This document shows, in pieces, positions 24,936-30,210 of a stretch of DNA of 55,910 nucleotides. The stretch comes from an uncultured Bacteroidales bacterium (GTDB lineage: Bacteria; Bacteroidota; Bacteroidia; Bacteroidales; UBA932). Numbering within the stretch: position 1 is the stretch's first letter; each line of letters begins with the position of its first letter. Below the pieces are notes generated by a model. That model searched no databases. It was given only the letters and a program-made list of their open reading frames with translations, and was not told the DNA's origin. The stretch lies in NCBI GenBank assembly GCA_900318565.1, contig ONLD01000007.1:1-55910 (forward strand), read 5' to 3'. Made by a program: the position numbers and the translations under genes.

Positions 24936-25958
24936 TCAGCGCACGCAACGTACGTTCGCAGCAAATGAATTCTTGTCTGCGGTGCCTACGAACACCTCGT
25001 CGCTTTCCTTATAAATGTAGCGGTACACGCCTTTGCCTTCGTACTGGTCGGAGGTCCAGAAAGCGGCGTACTCACTGTAGCCTACAAAATCATATCCGGC
25101 GGAAGTAATCATAGCGAATCCAAACGGCAAGGCGCTGATGTTCAAGTCCTTGACATTGACTCCGCGATAATACTCCCACAGAGTCTCGCCGTTGAAGGCT
25201 CCGAACCCCATCAGATTGCCGGCCCCGCTCGGGGAAGACTGCATCGGAGCGAGGGTATCGGGAGCTCCGGAGCTCTTGAGGAGGTTCACCCAATCCTTTT
25301 CGGAAGGCAGACGCCATCCCGCGGGGCAGGCTTTCTGCGCCTCTTCCCAGGTATAGTATCCGCCGAAGATATTCTGCATAGCAGGGCTGTCCGCATACGC
25401 ATTGCCGAACACGTGCTTGCCGGCAGAGTCATAGTCCACGCGGCAGAGATTGGTGCGGATCCACTGCAATCCGCCGGCATCGACCACATAATAATCCCTG
25501 CCGTAGATTTTTTCGACGGCCTCGTCGGGACGTATCTCCCAGCCGGTCAATGAGCCCTCGTCGGTGCCCGGCTTGTCGGACACGATTACGAAATACCGGG
25601 ACTCAGCCGAGACATAATACTTGTCGGAGGACTGTACGGGGAAAGCCGTGCAGGTTATGGAGAAGGTGCCGAGGGTGTCGGGAACCGTGAACTCGACAGT
25701 AGCGGGGGCCGTATATACGGTGTCGCGCTTGTTATTGGCGGAGTTGCTGAAGCAATATGCAACGGCGGTCCCGTCGGGAGCAGTGATGCCGGAGCCGGAC
25801 AGGGCGTACTTCTGTCCGCTCATCACGTAATATGGAATATCGTTGGTGAATGCAAGGGTGCCGGCCATATAAGTCTTTTCGGTCTCTTTCTTCTTGCAAG
25901 AAGAGAGGCACAGCAAGATTGCGGCAACTGCCAGTATGAAAAGGTTACGGAATTTCAT
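24936..25958 (-). CDS. FISUMP-domain lipoprotein
   Basis: 340 residues; signal peptide ending LCLSSCKKK (lipobox). The N-terminal half (about 30-150) looks like a beta-sandwich domain. The C-terminal part has the Fibrobacter succinogenes major paralogous domain (TIGR02145-like): GLQWIRTNL, YYTWEEAQKACPAGWRLPSEKDWVNLL, and AAFWTSDQY with an ANVRCVR end. The family is surface-exposed and of unknown function. It precedes the RSH gene and is divergent from apbE. Confidence 0.88.
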   Translation of the reverse strand: MKFRNLFILAVAAILLCLSSCKKKETEKTYMAGTLAFTNDIPYYVMSGQKYALSGSGITAPDGTAVAYCFSNSANNKRDTVYTAPATVEFTVPDTLGTFSITCTAFPVQSSDKYYVSAESRYFVIVSDKPGTDEGSLTGWEIRPDEAVEKIYGRDYYVVDAGGLQWIRTNLCRVDYDSAGKHVFGNAYADSPAMQNIFGGYYTWEEAQKACPAGWRLPSEKDWVNLLKSSGAPDTLAPMQSSPSGAGNLMGFGAFNGETLWEYYRGVNVKDLNISALPFGFAMITSAGYDFVGYSEYAAFWTSDQYEGKGVYRYIYKESDEVFVGTADKNSFAANVRCVR

Positions 25959-26032: not shown

Positions 26033-26968
26033 GTGAAGACCAGAATAACCATCATTTTTTGCATCCTTCTTGCCTGCAACGGGTGCGCCCCGCGCTATGA
26101 AACCATCGGAGGATACGCACAGGGAGGGACCTATACCGTCAGATACAACGCCGCCGGGGTGACAGTCCCGCGCGAGCAGGTCGGGGCCGCCATCGAGGAC
26201 ATACTATGCGCCATAGACACCACCCTGTCGGGCTACAACCGCAAGTCGCTGCTGAGCAGGCGCAACGCTGGCGAGAGCGTGCCCCTCAACGATATGTTCC
26301 GGGACATCGAGGCCATTTCCGAGCGCTACCGCGAGCTGACAGGAGGCGCGTTCGATGCGGCCGCGGGCCCGCTGTTCGACATCTGGGGATTCGGATTCAC
26401 GGCGGACAGTCTCCCTTCGGAGGCGGCGATCCGGCAGGCAATGGAGCGCTGCCGCAGGCGGGAAGTGCTCAACTTCAATGCAATAGCCCAGGGCTACAGC
26501 TGCGATGTGGTGGCCCGCTATCTCCATTCCATAGGCGTCAAGGATATGCTTGTGGACATAGGCGAAATCTACTGCGAAGGGTGCAATCCGTCCGGGCAGG
26601 GATGGAGCATCGGCATCGACACGCCCGAAGACGGCAACAACACCCCGGGGGCACGGCTCTCCGGCATCTGGCACTCCGACGGAGGAGCGCACGGAATCGT
26701 GACCTCGGGCAACTACCGTAAATACTACATCAAGGACGGGCACAAGTACGCGCACACGATAGACCCGCGCACGGGACGCCCCGTGGAGCACGACCTGCTC
26801 AGCGCTACCGTAGTGGCTCCCACGGCCACCGACGCCGACGCCCTTGCCACCTACTTTATGGTCATCGGAGCCGGGCCGGCGAAGGAATGGGTCAGCTCGC
26901 ACGAAGGCATCGAAGCCTGCCTGATTACATCAGGAGGCATCTGGAAATCCGAAGGGTTCGGGGACTAA
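26033..26968 (+). CDS. apbE: FAD:protein FMN transferase (ApbE) lipoprotein
   Basis: 311 residues from GTG 26033; signal peptide with lipobox ACNGC. ApbE covalently attaches FMN to threonines of membrane proteins such as NqrB/C and RnfG/D. Signatures: GGTYTVRY, GAFDAAAGPLFDIWGF, LNFNAIAQGYSCDVVARYL, and HTIDPRTGRPVEHDLLSATV followed by TDADALATYFMV. The glycine pair of the usual DIGGE motif is a single Gly here (VDIGEI). GTG was chosen since the open frame above it has no signal peptide and overlaps the promoter. It converges on the ABC gene with a 4-bp overlap. Confidence 0.9.
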   Translation: MKTRITIIFCILLACNGCAPRYETIGGYAQGGTYTVRYNAAGVTVPREQVGAAIEDILCAIDTTLSGYNRKSLLSRRNAGESVPLNDMFRDIEAISERYRELTGGAFDAAAGPLFDIWGFGFTADSLPSEAAIRQAMERCRRREVLNFNAIAQGYSCDVVARYLHSIGVKDMLVDIGEIYCEGCNPSGQGWSIGIDTPEDGNNTPGARLSGIWHSDGGAHGIVTSGNYRKYYIKDGHKYAHTIDPRTGRPVEHDLLSATVVAPTATDADALATYFMVIGAGPAKEWVSSHEGIEACLITSGGIWKSEGFGD

Positions 26969-28599
26969 AGCTTCAGCACGTTGTCCGCGTAGCTCGTGGC
27001 GGCGGGACGGTGCGTGATGCAGAGAATGGTCTTGGTGCCGCGGTAACGCCGTCCGAGCCTCTCGAGAAGCTCGAGCTCGGTGTCGGCATCCAGAGCGGAA
27101 GTAGCCTCGTCCAGCACCAGAATTCCTCCGGGACGAAGAAGGGCACGGGCGATGGCGATGCGCTGGGCCTGCCCCTCGCTGAGGCCGGCGCCAATCTCGG
27201 CGCACACAGTATCCAGCCCGTCCTGCAGATCATACACGAAATCGGCTGCCGCAAGATGCAGCACTTCCCGGATTTCATCCTCTGCGGCATCCGGACGGGC
27301 AAGCAGGAGATTCTCACGTATCGTACCGCTCATCAGCGAGTTACCTTGCGGCACATACATAAAATTGCAGCGCGTGCGCACGCCTGAAGGCAGCTCCCGG
27401 CCGCCATCCTCATACAGCGTCACACGGCCCCCGTCAGGAGGCAGCAGCGACATAATAACGCGCACCAGAGTGGACTTGCCGGCGCCTGTGGAGCCCACGA
27501 TTGCAGTCATAGTGCCGGGCTTGAAATCGTAGTTCAGCCCCCTCACCACTGGCTCACGCACACCCTCGTATGCAAAAGTAAGATTTTCCACCCGCACACC
27601 GGGCGCCCCGGACAGCACGATATCGTCCCCTTCCTCCTCCTGCGGCGCATCGTCGAGGTCGATCAGGCGGTCCTGCGAAGACAGGGCACGGATGAATGCG
27701 GGCACCTGGAAAGCTATGCCGGCGACGGGGCGCTGCACCTGGCCGACCAGTTGCAAAAAGGCCACCATCGTACCATAGCCGAGCGTGCCGTCTCTAAGGC
27801 CGTACACGCCCCAGAGGAATACCAGGGCGTAGCCGGCAGCAAACCCCAGCTGCATAAATCCACGCGAGACGGCATTGTAGCCCAGTCGCGTCATCGTCTT
27901 GCCGTACACATATTCCTGCAGTCCCCCGAGGCTCTCCAGCGCGCGGCCGGTGGCTCCCAGCATACGCACGATTACGCGCCGCTGTATATTCTCCTGGATG
28001 TGTCCCTGCACTCGGGCGTCGCCGGCTCGTATCTCTCCCGTCAGGGCCCGCAACTTTCTGAAAAACAGTCTGCTGCACAGCACTGCGGCAGGCATTATCA
28101 GCAGCAGGATCCACGCCAGTTTCGGAGAGAGTTTGAAAAACAGCAGCGAAGCCGCAAGCAGTTGGGCTATAGTGCTGAAAATGTCGGGGAGACTGACGCA
28201 AAGGAAGTCCACCACCACCCTTATGTCCTCTTCGAGCCGGCTCACTGTGTCGCCGCTGTGGAGCTTGTCACGGCCGCTCCAGGTGCTCATCATCACCTTG
28301 CGGAACTCTTTTGCGCGAAGCTCGTTCTGGGCCCGGACCACGATATAGCCCTCCCAATAGCGGCCGCCCACGCGGCAGATTACCTGGAAAAGCATAACCC
28401 CGACCAGCATCCAGACGGCCTGTGAAAGGCTGCCGGAAGCCGCCCCGGTGGCGATATCGACTGTCCGTTTGCTGAGCCACACAAAACTAAGGGAGGCCGC
28501 CACGCCCGCCAGGCCTATCAAGGCGCTGAAGAGCACGCGGCCGCGATGCGGGCGGAAAGTCCGCATCAAAGCCCTGTAGCAAGTGCGGAACGGCCGCAT
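26965..28599 (-). CDS. ABC exporter (fused membrane and ATPase domains)
   Basis: 544 residues. The type 1 exporter membrane domain has six helices (to about residue 310), then an ATPase with Walker A GSTGAGKST, Q loop YVPQGNSLMSG, signature LSEGQAQRIAIARALL and Walker B ILVLDEATSALD. There is no N-terminal C39 peptidase domain. Its ATG overlaps the stop of the pqqD-like gene by one base. As the last gene of the kinase/peptidase/PqqD cassette it probably exports the product. Confidence 0.9.
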   Translation of the reverse strand: MRPFRTCYRALMRTFRPHRGRVLFSALIGLAGVAASLSFVWLSKRTVDIATGAASGSLSQAVWMLVGVMLFQVICRVGGRYWEGYIVVRAQNELRAKEFRKVMMSTWSGRDKLHSGDTVSRLEEDIRVVVDFLCVSLPDIFSTIAQLLAASLLFFKLSPKLAWILLLIMPAAVLCSRLFFRKLRALTGEIRAGDARVQGHIQENIQRRVIVRMLGATGRALESLGGLQEYVYGKTMTRLGYNAVSRGFMQLGFAAGYALVFLWGVYGLRDGTLGYGTMVAFLQLVGQVQRPVAGIAFQVPAFIRALSSQDRLIDLDDAPQEEEGDDIVLSGAPGVRVENLTFAYEGVREPVVRGLNYDFKPGTMTAIVGSTGAGKSTLVRVIMSLLPPDGGRVTLYEDGGRELPSGVRTRCNFMYVPQGNSLMSGTIRENLLLARPDAAEDEIREVLHLAAADFVYDLQDGLDTVCAEIGAGLSEGQAQRIAIARALLRPGGILVLDEATSALDADTELELLERLGRRYRGTKTILCITHRPAATSYADNVLKL

Positions 28600-28868
28600 C
28601 AGGGAGTCACGATACCGGCCTCAACCCACTTGGCGGCTATGGCCTCGGAATCTTTGAGTGCGGTCTCGCGGTCGATTTCATATCTCTCGACCAGCAGGTC
28701 AGCAAGGTCTTCGGGGCCGAAGTCCTTGCCGTCAACCGATTTCCAAAGATAGGCGGCGGATTCGTTGAGCGAAATCATCTTGTTGAAATTGATCTGCTTC
28801 ACGCTCTCTGCCGTGATGATGAATTCCTTGCCCAGGGGGCGAAGGGTAAATCCGGGAACTGTTTTCAT
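28599..28868 (-). CDS. PqqD-like protein (RiPP recognition element fold)
   Basis: 89 residues: MKTVPGFTLRPLGKEFIIT, then NFNKMISLNESAAYLWKS and an acidic helical C-terminus (LADLLVERYEIDRETALKD). PqqD-like proteins bind leader peptides of ribosomally made natural products and hand them to modifying enzymes. The start overlaps the peptidase gene stop (ATGA) and the stop overlaps the ABC start. No modifying radical SAM, transglutaminase-like or cyclase gene is next to it. Confidence 0.85.
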   Translation of the reverse strand: MKTVPGFTLRPLGKEFIITAESVKQINFNKMISLNESAAYLWKSVDGKDFGPEDLADLLVERYEIDRETALKDSEAIAAKWVEAGIVTP

Positions 28869-29323
28869 AATATCTTAATCCTTCTGTATATTCCTAAAGC
28901 ATAGCGCCTTACAATCCGCGGGGCCGACACCCAGCGGCGGCTTCTGCGCTTGAAGCGCTCCGTGCGGCAGTCGATCCTCCGGCCGCCGGGGCGAAGTATG
29001 GCTACGGCCGTGCCGCACACGTCCCCGAGGGTACAGCGCTCGGTGGCGTCCAGGTTGCCGTCGCCCTTGAGCAGCACCTTGTCGTCCTTGATGGCGCGCA
29101 CGCGGTGCAGCACATAGTGGCCGGGGCTGAGCTGGCAGAGCACTATGTCGCCCACCTCAACCTGCGGCAGCTTGAGGAGCTCCACGCTGTCGCGCTCCCC
29201 GCGGATGAAGGGAGACATACTCGAGCCCTTGGTCATAATGACCACGGAGTGCCCTTCGTCAAGCATTCGGGACACTTCGCCGAGCATCACGGCATTGGGG
29301 AGCACTACCTTGGTCGTCTTCAT
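28865..29323 (-). CDS. S24/S26-family (signal peptidase I-like) peptidase
   Basis: 152 residues from ATG 29323, chosen because it overlaps the preceding stop as ATGA; a start 21 bases upstream is also open. The nucleophile motif is GSSMSPF (Ser35). The second catalytic site is a His (VLHRV, His73), followed by LKGDGN (86-90), as in Ser-His signal peptidases of the SipW/Sec11 kind. No transmembrane helix is seen at the N-terminus, unlike usual signal peptidases. Possibly the leader protease of the cassette. Confidence 0.82.
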   Translation of the reverse strand: MKTTKVVLPNAVMLGEVSRMLDEGHSVVIMTKGSSMSPFIRGERDSVELLKLPQVEVGDIVLCQLSPGHYVLHRVRAIKDDKVLLKGDGNLDATERCTLGDVCGTAVAILRPGGRRIDCRTERFKRRSRRWVSAPRIVRRYALGIYRRIKIL

Positions 29324-30210
29324 TTCAGCACCTCCGCGGCACATACCCTGGCAGCTTCCTCGTCCGGCCGGCAGTCAAGAACGTAGCAGGGGGTGGTGGT
29401 CACAATCTGTTCGAGGGTGGCGTGCAGCCCGTCCGCGATGGTCTTGTCGGCCTTGAATCCTGAACTGGACGAATACAGCAGGGCATAGGACTCCAGCAGG
29501 CCCAGGGGCGTAATCTTGTTTACGGAGCAGCGGCGGATGCGCACGAAAGCGCCGACCGGAGCCTCCACATTGCGGTAGCAGGGCGTCTTGCCGCTCCAGG
29601 GTGAACCGTAGGCAATCACCCGCCCGTCAGGCCAGGCCCGCACTACGGGGTTGTCGTCGTTCATAAGCTCCGAGCCGGGTATATGCTTGAGCCACAGGCT
29701 GCTGTGCGTGCTCTTGCCGGTACCGCTCTTGGCGAGGAACAAATAGGCCTTGCCGGCGTTGGAAGTCATAGAGGCGTGCATTTCCAAAGTGCCGAGCGGG
29801 GCGCTCCGGAACGCATACAGCAGCATCATAGAATTGTTGATGCCGAACATTGCGTCGCCGACGCGGCGGTTGTCGAGATAGAGCCTGGCCTGCGAAAAAT
29901 TCTCGCTGGTGCGAAGATGGCAGCGGCACTCGATGCTCTTGTCCGGGGACATATCGAAAGACCATCCGCCGCCCGCCTCGCGGAAGAGCCGTATCACGGT
30001 CTGGCCGTCTTCGGTGGGGGCGTCATACACCAGACTCCTCTCTACCGACGTGTCGAAAGGCTCCGTCATAAGCGTCATCCCGAAAAGCAGGGCGCGCCCG
30101 GAATCTGCGACCTCGAAGGGGTCATACTGGCTGAGCCTGGGCCACAACGAACAGTTGTCCGTCATCGTAAGAGAGAAAATATGTTCGGCAACCTTGAAGT
30201 ATTTGGTCAT
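29320..30210 (-). CDS. HPr kinase-like P-loop protein
   Basis: 296 residues. The Walker A loop AKSGTGKSTHSSLW lies at about 160-172 and the acidic NDDNPVVRAW about 20 residues on, both as in the C-terminal domain of HPr kinase/phosphorylase. The N-terminal 140 residues are family specific and contain no HPr kinase N-domain. Relatives occur beside lasso-peptide and other RiPP genes and are thought to phosphorylate the peptide. First gene of the cassette; promoter 20 nt upstream. Confidence 0.78.
   Translation of the reverse strand: MTKYFKVAEHIFSLTMTDNCSLWPRLSQYDPFEVADSGRALLFGMTLMTEPFDTSVERSLVYDAPTEDGQTVIRLFREAGGGWSFDMSPDKSIECRCHLRTSENFSQARLYLDNRRVGDAMFGINNSMMLLYAFRSAPLGTLEMHASMTSNAGKAYLFLAKSGTGKSTHSSLWLKHIPGSELMNDDNPVVRAWPDGRVIAYGSPWSGKTPCYRNVEAPVGAFVRIRRCSVNKITPLGLLESYALLYSSSSGFKADKTIADGLHATLEQIVTTTPCYVLDCRPDEEAARVCAAEVLK

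Follow-up and report, generated by a model that had tools for sequence, protein, structure and literature searches.

An LPP-like kinase, peptidase and exporter cassette in an uncultured Bacteroidales bacterium and scattered candidate precursor peptides paired with lipoprotein genes

The DNA analysed here (the window) is a 55,910-nucleotide stretch of contig ONLD01000007.1 from an uncultured Bacteroidales bacterium (assembly GCA_900318565.1). It carries a cassette of four overlapping minus-strand genes, designated K, P, D and T in their order of reading. K (29320..30210, 296 amino acids [aa]) is an open reading frame (ORF) for a kinase of the HprK/PEPCK fold. P (28865..29323, 152 aa from the ATG at 29323; an in-frame ATG upstream at 29344 would give 159 aa) encodes a leader peptidase resembling SipW and archaeal-type signal peptidases. 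D (28599..28868, 89 aa) encodes a PqqD-like recognition element for ribosomally synthesized and post-translationally modified peptides (RiPP recognition element, RRE), and T (26965..28599, 544 aa) an MsbA-like ABC exporter without a C39 peptidase. Read from the sequence, K and P overlap by ATGA (29320-29323), P and D by ATGA (28865-28868), and D and T by TGATG (28597-28601). An earlier note on this DNA had described the four genes as a coupled, overlapping cassette; the span and overlaps that it gave, and the tight operon that they imply, are confirmed. K has a divergent neighbour, a plus-strand ORF from 30282, and T a convergent one, a plus-strand ORF ending at 26968. A search for a precursor gene adjoining the cassette in the window found none. 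No B2 protease or Asn-synthase cyclase was seen among the ORFs flanking the cassette; the genome at large was not searched for either.

The four products resemble LppK, LppS, LppB and LppD of the linear polyphosphorylated peptide (LPP) system, reported in Bacillota in May 2026 (PMC13381572). Both K and P are too diverged for family cut-offs. The best matches of K, all below cut-off, are to ScmC (E 0.0013) and HprK_rel_A (E 0.13). Invariant among 33 relatives are the P-loop residues G163, G165, K166 and S167 and the Asp-Asp pair D185 and D186. The predicted structure of K (AlphaFold2, mean predicted local distance difference test [pLDDT] 95.4) has PEPCK as its top Foldseek match (1oen, E 3.5e-7) and also matches HPr kinase (1knx, E 2.2e-5), with good E-values and modest template-modelling (TM) scores of 0.3-0.5. 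K corresponds to the HprK-like kinase of LPP in its fold and its P-loop, although it passes no family cut-off. The model nearest to P is the archaeal-type signal peptidase I TIGR02228 (E 4.2e-5, below cut-off), followed by a second match below cut-off to Peptidase_S24 in Pfam (E 0.18), and a profile of P matches SEC11A in the PDB (E 9.6e-7). Residues G33, S35, M36, P38, H73, R74, G87 and D88 are invariant in 34 relatives. These include Ser, His and Asp residues (S35, H73, D88) like the catalytic ones of the LPP leader peptidase, with D88 one candidate for the equivalent of D93 in LppS. P has no strong transmembrane segment (highest 19-residue hydropathy 1.02).

D is a member of the PqqD family (PF05402, E 2.5e-15, above cut-off) and the only PF05402 match in its own genome. 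Its predicted structure (AlphaFold2, mean pLDDT 87.4) has three strands followed by three helices, the order seen in RREs, and the closest structures in Foldseek are leader-bound lasso RREs, with the TbiB1-leader complex 5v1v as the top match (E 3.6e-4, TM 0.75). Y63 and D73 are invariant and N35 is nearly invariant in 38 relatives; these residues align with Y60, D70 and N33 of LppB (9x8z), by which the leader is held in that protein (PMC13381572). D is therefore a discrete RRE with equivalents of N33 and D70, as in LPP; these equivalents are common to many lasso and pyrroloquinoline quinone RREs, and so do not single out LPP. The earlier note had called D a leader-binding PqqD-like protein and counted the lack of a peptide-binding groove as grounds for dropping its proposal. 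That outcome did not arise: an RRE-like fold is supported by the predicted structure and the Foldseek matches, and a groove would be expected from that fold and the conserved contact residues. T exceeds the cut-offs of ABC_membrane (PF00664, E 4.3e-30) and ABC_tran (PF00005, E 4.9e-24), with the motifs GSTGAGKS, LSEGQ and DEATSALD, and none of its 19 Pfam matches is to a C39 peptidase. Its top NCBIfam model is MsbA (E 7.6e-67, below that model's cut-off), in keeping with the MsbA-like exporter of LPP. The parts list of the earlier note (kinase, protease, PqqD-like protein and exporter) is borne out.

The cassette is conserved in related genomes. Regions of approximately 20 kb around PqqD matches were sampled: 100 came from the same family as the window and 20 from the same order, and the window itself brings the total to 121. 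Counting K, P and T when they lie no more than 4.5 kb from D, all four genes occur together in at least 49 of the 121 regions. The true count is probably higher, since the simple gene caller missed D in 11 regions and tblastn shows some of these (e.g. L093) to be complete. Clustering of the four genes exceeds chance. A fifth gene, encoding a nucleoside triphosphate (NTP) transferase (PF14907), is also present in 18 of the 49 regions and frequently lies between D and T. A K-based scan of named genomes, in which the best 80 of 592 relatives were kept, shows P and D in 70 of the 80 loci and T as well in 48 of those 70; among the records are Prevotella, Paraprevotella, Bacteroides sp. 51 and Paludibacteraceae. 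Three Fibrobacter loci among the 80 carry K, P and PF14907-like genes, and D was not in the stretch. The co-occurrence of the four families that the earlier note had suggested looking for, and whose absence it had taken as decisive, is therefore found in related genomes. Regions L062, L063, L074, L076 and L077 show a different arrangement, in which PqqD, NTP transferase and kinase genes stand together and P is missing. The genes around them, sugar transferases (PF02397) among others, resemble a polysaccharide locus; labels such as Wza/Wzc-like come from our own reading of the sequences.

The order also contains lasso-type clusters (L079, L162-L166, L174, L176 and L179) that combine an HprK-like kinase with PF00685 sulfotransferase, Transglut_core3 and Asn-synthase genes; the full gene set is not present in every one. 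A lasso system was our initial suspicion for the window cassette too. Such a reduced pathway, with its cyclase and B2 protease encoded elsewhere in the genome, would agree with the fold of D, which is nearest to lasso B1 proteins, with the HprK-like kinases known in lasso clusters, and with the presence of genuine lasso-type clusters carrying K in the same order. Gene content around the cassettes speaks against it: they carry P and not the pair of Transglut_core3 and Asn synthase, which accompanies other PqqD copies. PqqD is moreover single-copy in the window's own genome. We regard this reading as highly improbable.

Small ORFs encoding a [Y/W]xxP motif lie near the K-P-D loci of relatives and resemble one another, which is what a search for small ORFs near such cassettes, proposed in the earlier note, was meant to uncover. 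These candidate precursors are mostly 35-55 aa in length, with a leader of the form YxxP...E[GKQ]x[IF][CA]xS. In a set of 84 distinct peptides, drawn from the loci that scored best, the Tyr is present in 83/84 and the Pro in 82/84; column 18 holds a small residue (C or A) in 72/84 and column 20 a Ser in 70/84, and we infer that the leader is cut after column 18 or 19. The region behind the leader is acidic (24% D+E vs 4% K+R), and an aromatic residue lies near the peptide end in 67/84. For a set of 22 peptides taken from other genomes only, no Pfam family was matched, and NCBIfam gave four scattered weak single-member matches and no model for the peptides. The peptide profile had no match in the PDB, and the comparison with the LPP motif of the LppA leader was made by eye. 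In a Bacteroides record (L352:10442-10621), a YxxP peptide begins just where the exporter gene of a K-P-D-NTP transferase-T cassette ends, making it a cluster-bound precursor. In two Fibrobacter loci (L335:4032-4290 and L344:4616-4759), a YxxP peptide immediately precedes a PF14907-like gene and K-P; the E-values are weak, but the arrangement hints at a cluster-bound version in that group.

The profile built from the 22 peptides, to which the window's own genome contributed none, nevertheless finds matches in that genome, on four other contigs (E 6.1e-6, 7.2e-5, 2.6e-4 and 0.023); a fifth match (E 0.27) is embedded in a long frame. A wider profile of 48 peptides, three rows of which are own-genome peptides that it later matched, gives eight matches on eight other contigs (E 3.7e-17 to 0.0065). 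These matches support the guess in the earlier note that the machinery acts on a distant precursor. Up to 19 peptide matches were found in a single genome of the family. One genome of the same class consists of a single contig, with P at 732,899 and peptides at 970,818, 3,550,196, 3,556,055 and 3,642,108 (E 1e-5 to 0.006); broken contigs therefore do not explain the scatter.

The scattered peptides are paired with lipoprotein genes. All eight own-genome peptides lie 2-66 bp upstream of a same-strand lipoprotein gene as judged by eye from the N-termini, and 6 of the 8 partners also pass a scripted lipoprotein test. For the 84 peptides, a downstream gene is within reach in 70; of the other 14, 5 are near the edge of the locus and 9 have no such gene. 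A strict lipoprotein test is passed by 58/70 of these downstream genes, compared with 160/1348 other genes in the region set. Partner domains in the window's own genome are Lcl_C (2), BACON (2), Cthe_2159, Mfa_like_1, GLUG and FISUMP, some of them below cut-off. The partners in general may be "fimbrillin-like", although the Pfam model Mfa_like_1 matches only 5/45 partner N-termini. An alignment of partners was made from the first 48 of 68 references, after removal of a near-duplicate and of two proteins that lack a lipobox; Cys17 is invariant in it, partly as a result of this selection. Each peptide gene is probably co-transcribed with its lipoprotein gene, and the pairing suggests a role with surface proteins. 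One such unit in the window's own genome (L242, contig C25, 9271-14979) is divergent from genes labelled by eye as an ECF sigma factor, a FecR-like regulator and a SusC-like receptor. The window itself contains a FISUMP-domain lipoprotein gene (24936-25958, minus strand; PF09603, E 1.9e-20) approximately 1 kb from the cassette; it was considered as a peptide partner and rejected, the peptide model having no match anywhere in the window.

The short distance between peptide and lipoprotein genes (2-66 bp) is also what would be expected of translational leaders. The YxxP peptides could accordingly be translated leader peptides that regulate the downstream lipoprotein genes, the cassette still being LPP-like and its true precursor another, unrecognised small ORF; genomes that have P and no peptide match fit this idea as well. 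We consider it unlikely. What is conserved in the peptides is YxxP, the motif bound by RREs, similar peptides adjoin the cassette with no lipoprotein required in some relatives (for example L352, L294 and L305), and the peptides track P and D in the genome counts that follow, although a leader acting in cis need not follow distant enzymes.

Within 199 genomes of the family, peptides are found in 71/94 with PqqD compared with 8/105 without it. When the 19 genomes that supplied peptides are left out, the counts are 52/75 and 8/105 (p 1e-18). P is the better guide: in the 88 genomes with fetched PqqD regions, peptides occur in 66/72 with P and in 5/16 without P. Across 198 genomes of the order the corresponding counts are 10/31 and 1/167, and excluding the window's own family they are 8/28 and 1/167. 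Among 296 genomes of the phylum, P is present in 15, peptides in 4, and both in 2 (the window's own genome and the single-contig genome). The link between peptides and machinery is therefore strong in the family and its close surroundings, and thin elsewhere. Shared ancestry could produce co-occurrence of this kind if the cassette acted on some other cargo, such as a YxxP-tagged protein or a polysaccharide-linked peptide. The tests were made without phylogenetic correction, and several relatives carry D, NTP transferase and K without P in polysaccharide loci. This explanation is very unlikely in our judgement, given that the peptides follow P and not PqqD in general, and that the association recurs in other families of the order (8/28 vs 1/167).

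We consider it likely that the cassette is a single LPP-like machine for maturation and export, serving many scattered precursors that are each paired with a lipoprotein. Several observations weigh against this. The Fisher tests take no account of shared ancestry; 23/94 family genomes with PqqD lack peptides and 8/105 without PqqD have them, 21/31 genomes of the order with P have no peptide match, in the phylum-wide set P and peptides coincide in only one genome from outside the order, and two weak peptide matches lie in phylum genomes without P. Within the window's own genome, the four weakest peptide matches have E-values of 6e-4 to 0.0065, one of these four (contig C87) is missing the proline of the motif, and the peptide on C80 (L245:531-629) combines a good leader with an odd short tail, as a degenerate copy or an error in the sequence would. 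The peptides do not carry the LPP motif exactly, their serine lying one position further from the proline, and LppN (PF14907), a member of the core cluster in LPP, is absent from this genome. Finally, the profile of D favours the lasso RREs TfuB1 and TbiB1 (E 2.5e-8 and 3.6e-4) over LppB (E 0.0047), so that membership of D in the LPP clade is tentative.

By analogy with the LPP work in Bacillota, D would bind the YxxP leader of the precursors and present it, K would phosphorylate the conserved serine just behind the leader, P would remove the leader, and T would export the acidic core peptide; this order of phosphorylation, cleavage and export is taken from LPP. Trimming by P would be cytoplasmic, since P has no strong transmembrane segment, and the LppN step would be missing in this genome. 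More tentatively, the arrangement may constitute a genome-wide peptide-lipoprotein system in some Bacteroidales, in which one LPP-like machine processes multicopy precursors and the phosphorylated cores are each dedicated to a particular lipoprotein. The peptide could then be, for example, a ligand, cap or assembly factor for a fimbrillin-like or adhesin-like surface protein. RiPP discovery usually seeks a precursor beside the enzymes, and precursors scattered in this way would escape cluster-based mining. LPP chemistry would no longer be confined to Bacillota but would also occur in Bacteroidales, perhaps in Fibrobacter too, and the peptide would be tied to cell-surface lipoproteins. A defined set of substrates would then be available with which the role of the phosphorylated peptides could be tested.

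Three known systems invite comparison. The HprK_rel_A system (NCBIfam TIGR04352) shares an HprK-related kinase with the cassette and was rejected as its identity, as K reaches 11.4 bits where the cut-off is 200. Lasso peptides of the paeninodin and pseudomycoidin type (with a kinase K and a nucleotidyltransferase N), as described in PMC8498205, have in common with the cassette an HprK-like kinase, a discrete PqqD-like RRE and a leader-bearing precursor. In contrast to that type, the cassette has no adjoining B2 transglutaminase-like protease or Asn-synthase-like cyclase, and a serine protease serves as its putative leader cutter. A search of openly licensed PubMed Central papers, which is weak evidence of absence, found no account of the cassette system in Bacteroidota; as far as these searches show, the Bacteroidales host, the scattered precursors and the lipoprotein pairing are undescribed.

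The closest known system is LPP. Its clusters in Bacilli, lppA-K-B-S-D-N, encode an HprK-like kinase (LppK), an RRE (LppB), a SipW-like peptidase (LppS), an exporter (LppD) and an NTP transferase (LppN); LppK places several phosphates on one serine, and leader cleavage by LppS is aided by LppB (PMC13381572). The enzyme set was thus already published for Bacillota, and the suggestion in the earlier note of a new class of peptide export does not hold. The window cassette shares with LPP the HprK-like kinase, the discrete RRE, the SipW-like leader peptidase, the MsbA-like exporter and the lack of an adjoining cyclase, and the peptides share the tyrosine of the YxxP leader motif and a serine just behind the leader. 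By sequence profile, lasso B1 proteins are at least as close to D as LppB is. The authors of the LPP report describe the system as restricted to Bacillota, with final product and role unknown, whereas the host here belongs to the Bacteroidales. LPP precursors, with the motif YxxPxVLxHQxIxFETxxS, lie in or beside the cluster (PMC13381572), whereas the candidate precursors described here are scattered over other contigs, each paired with a lipoprotein gene.

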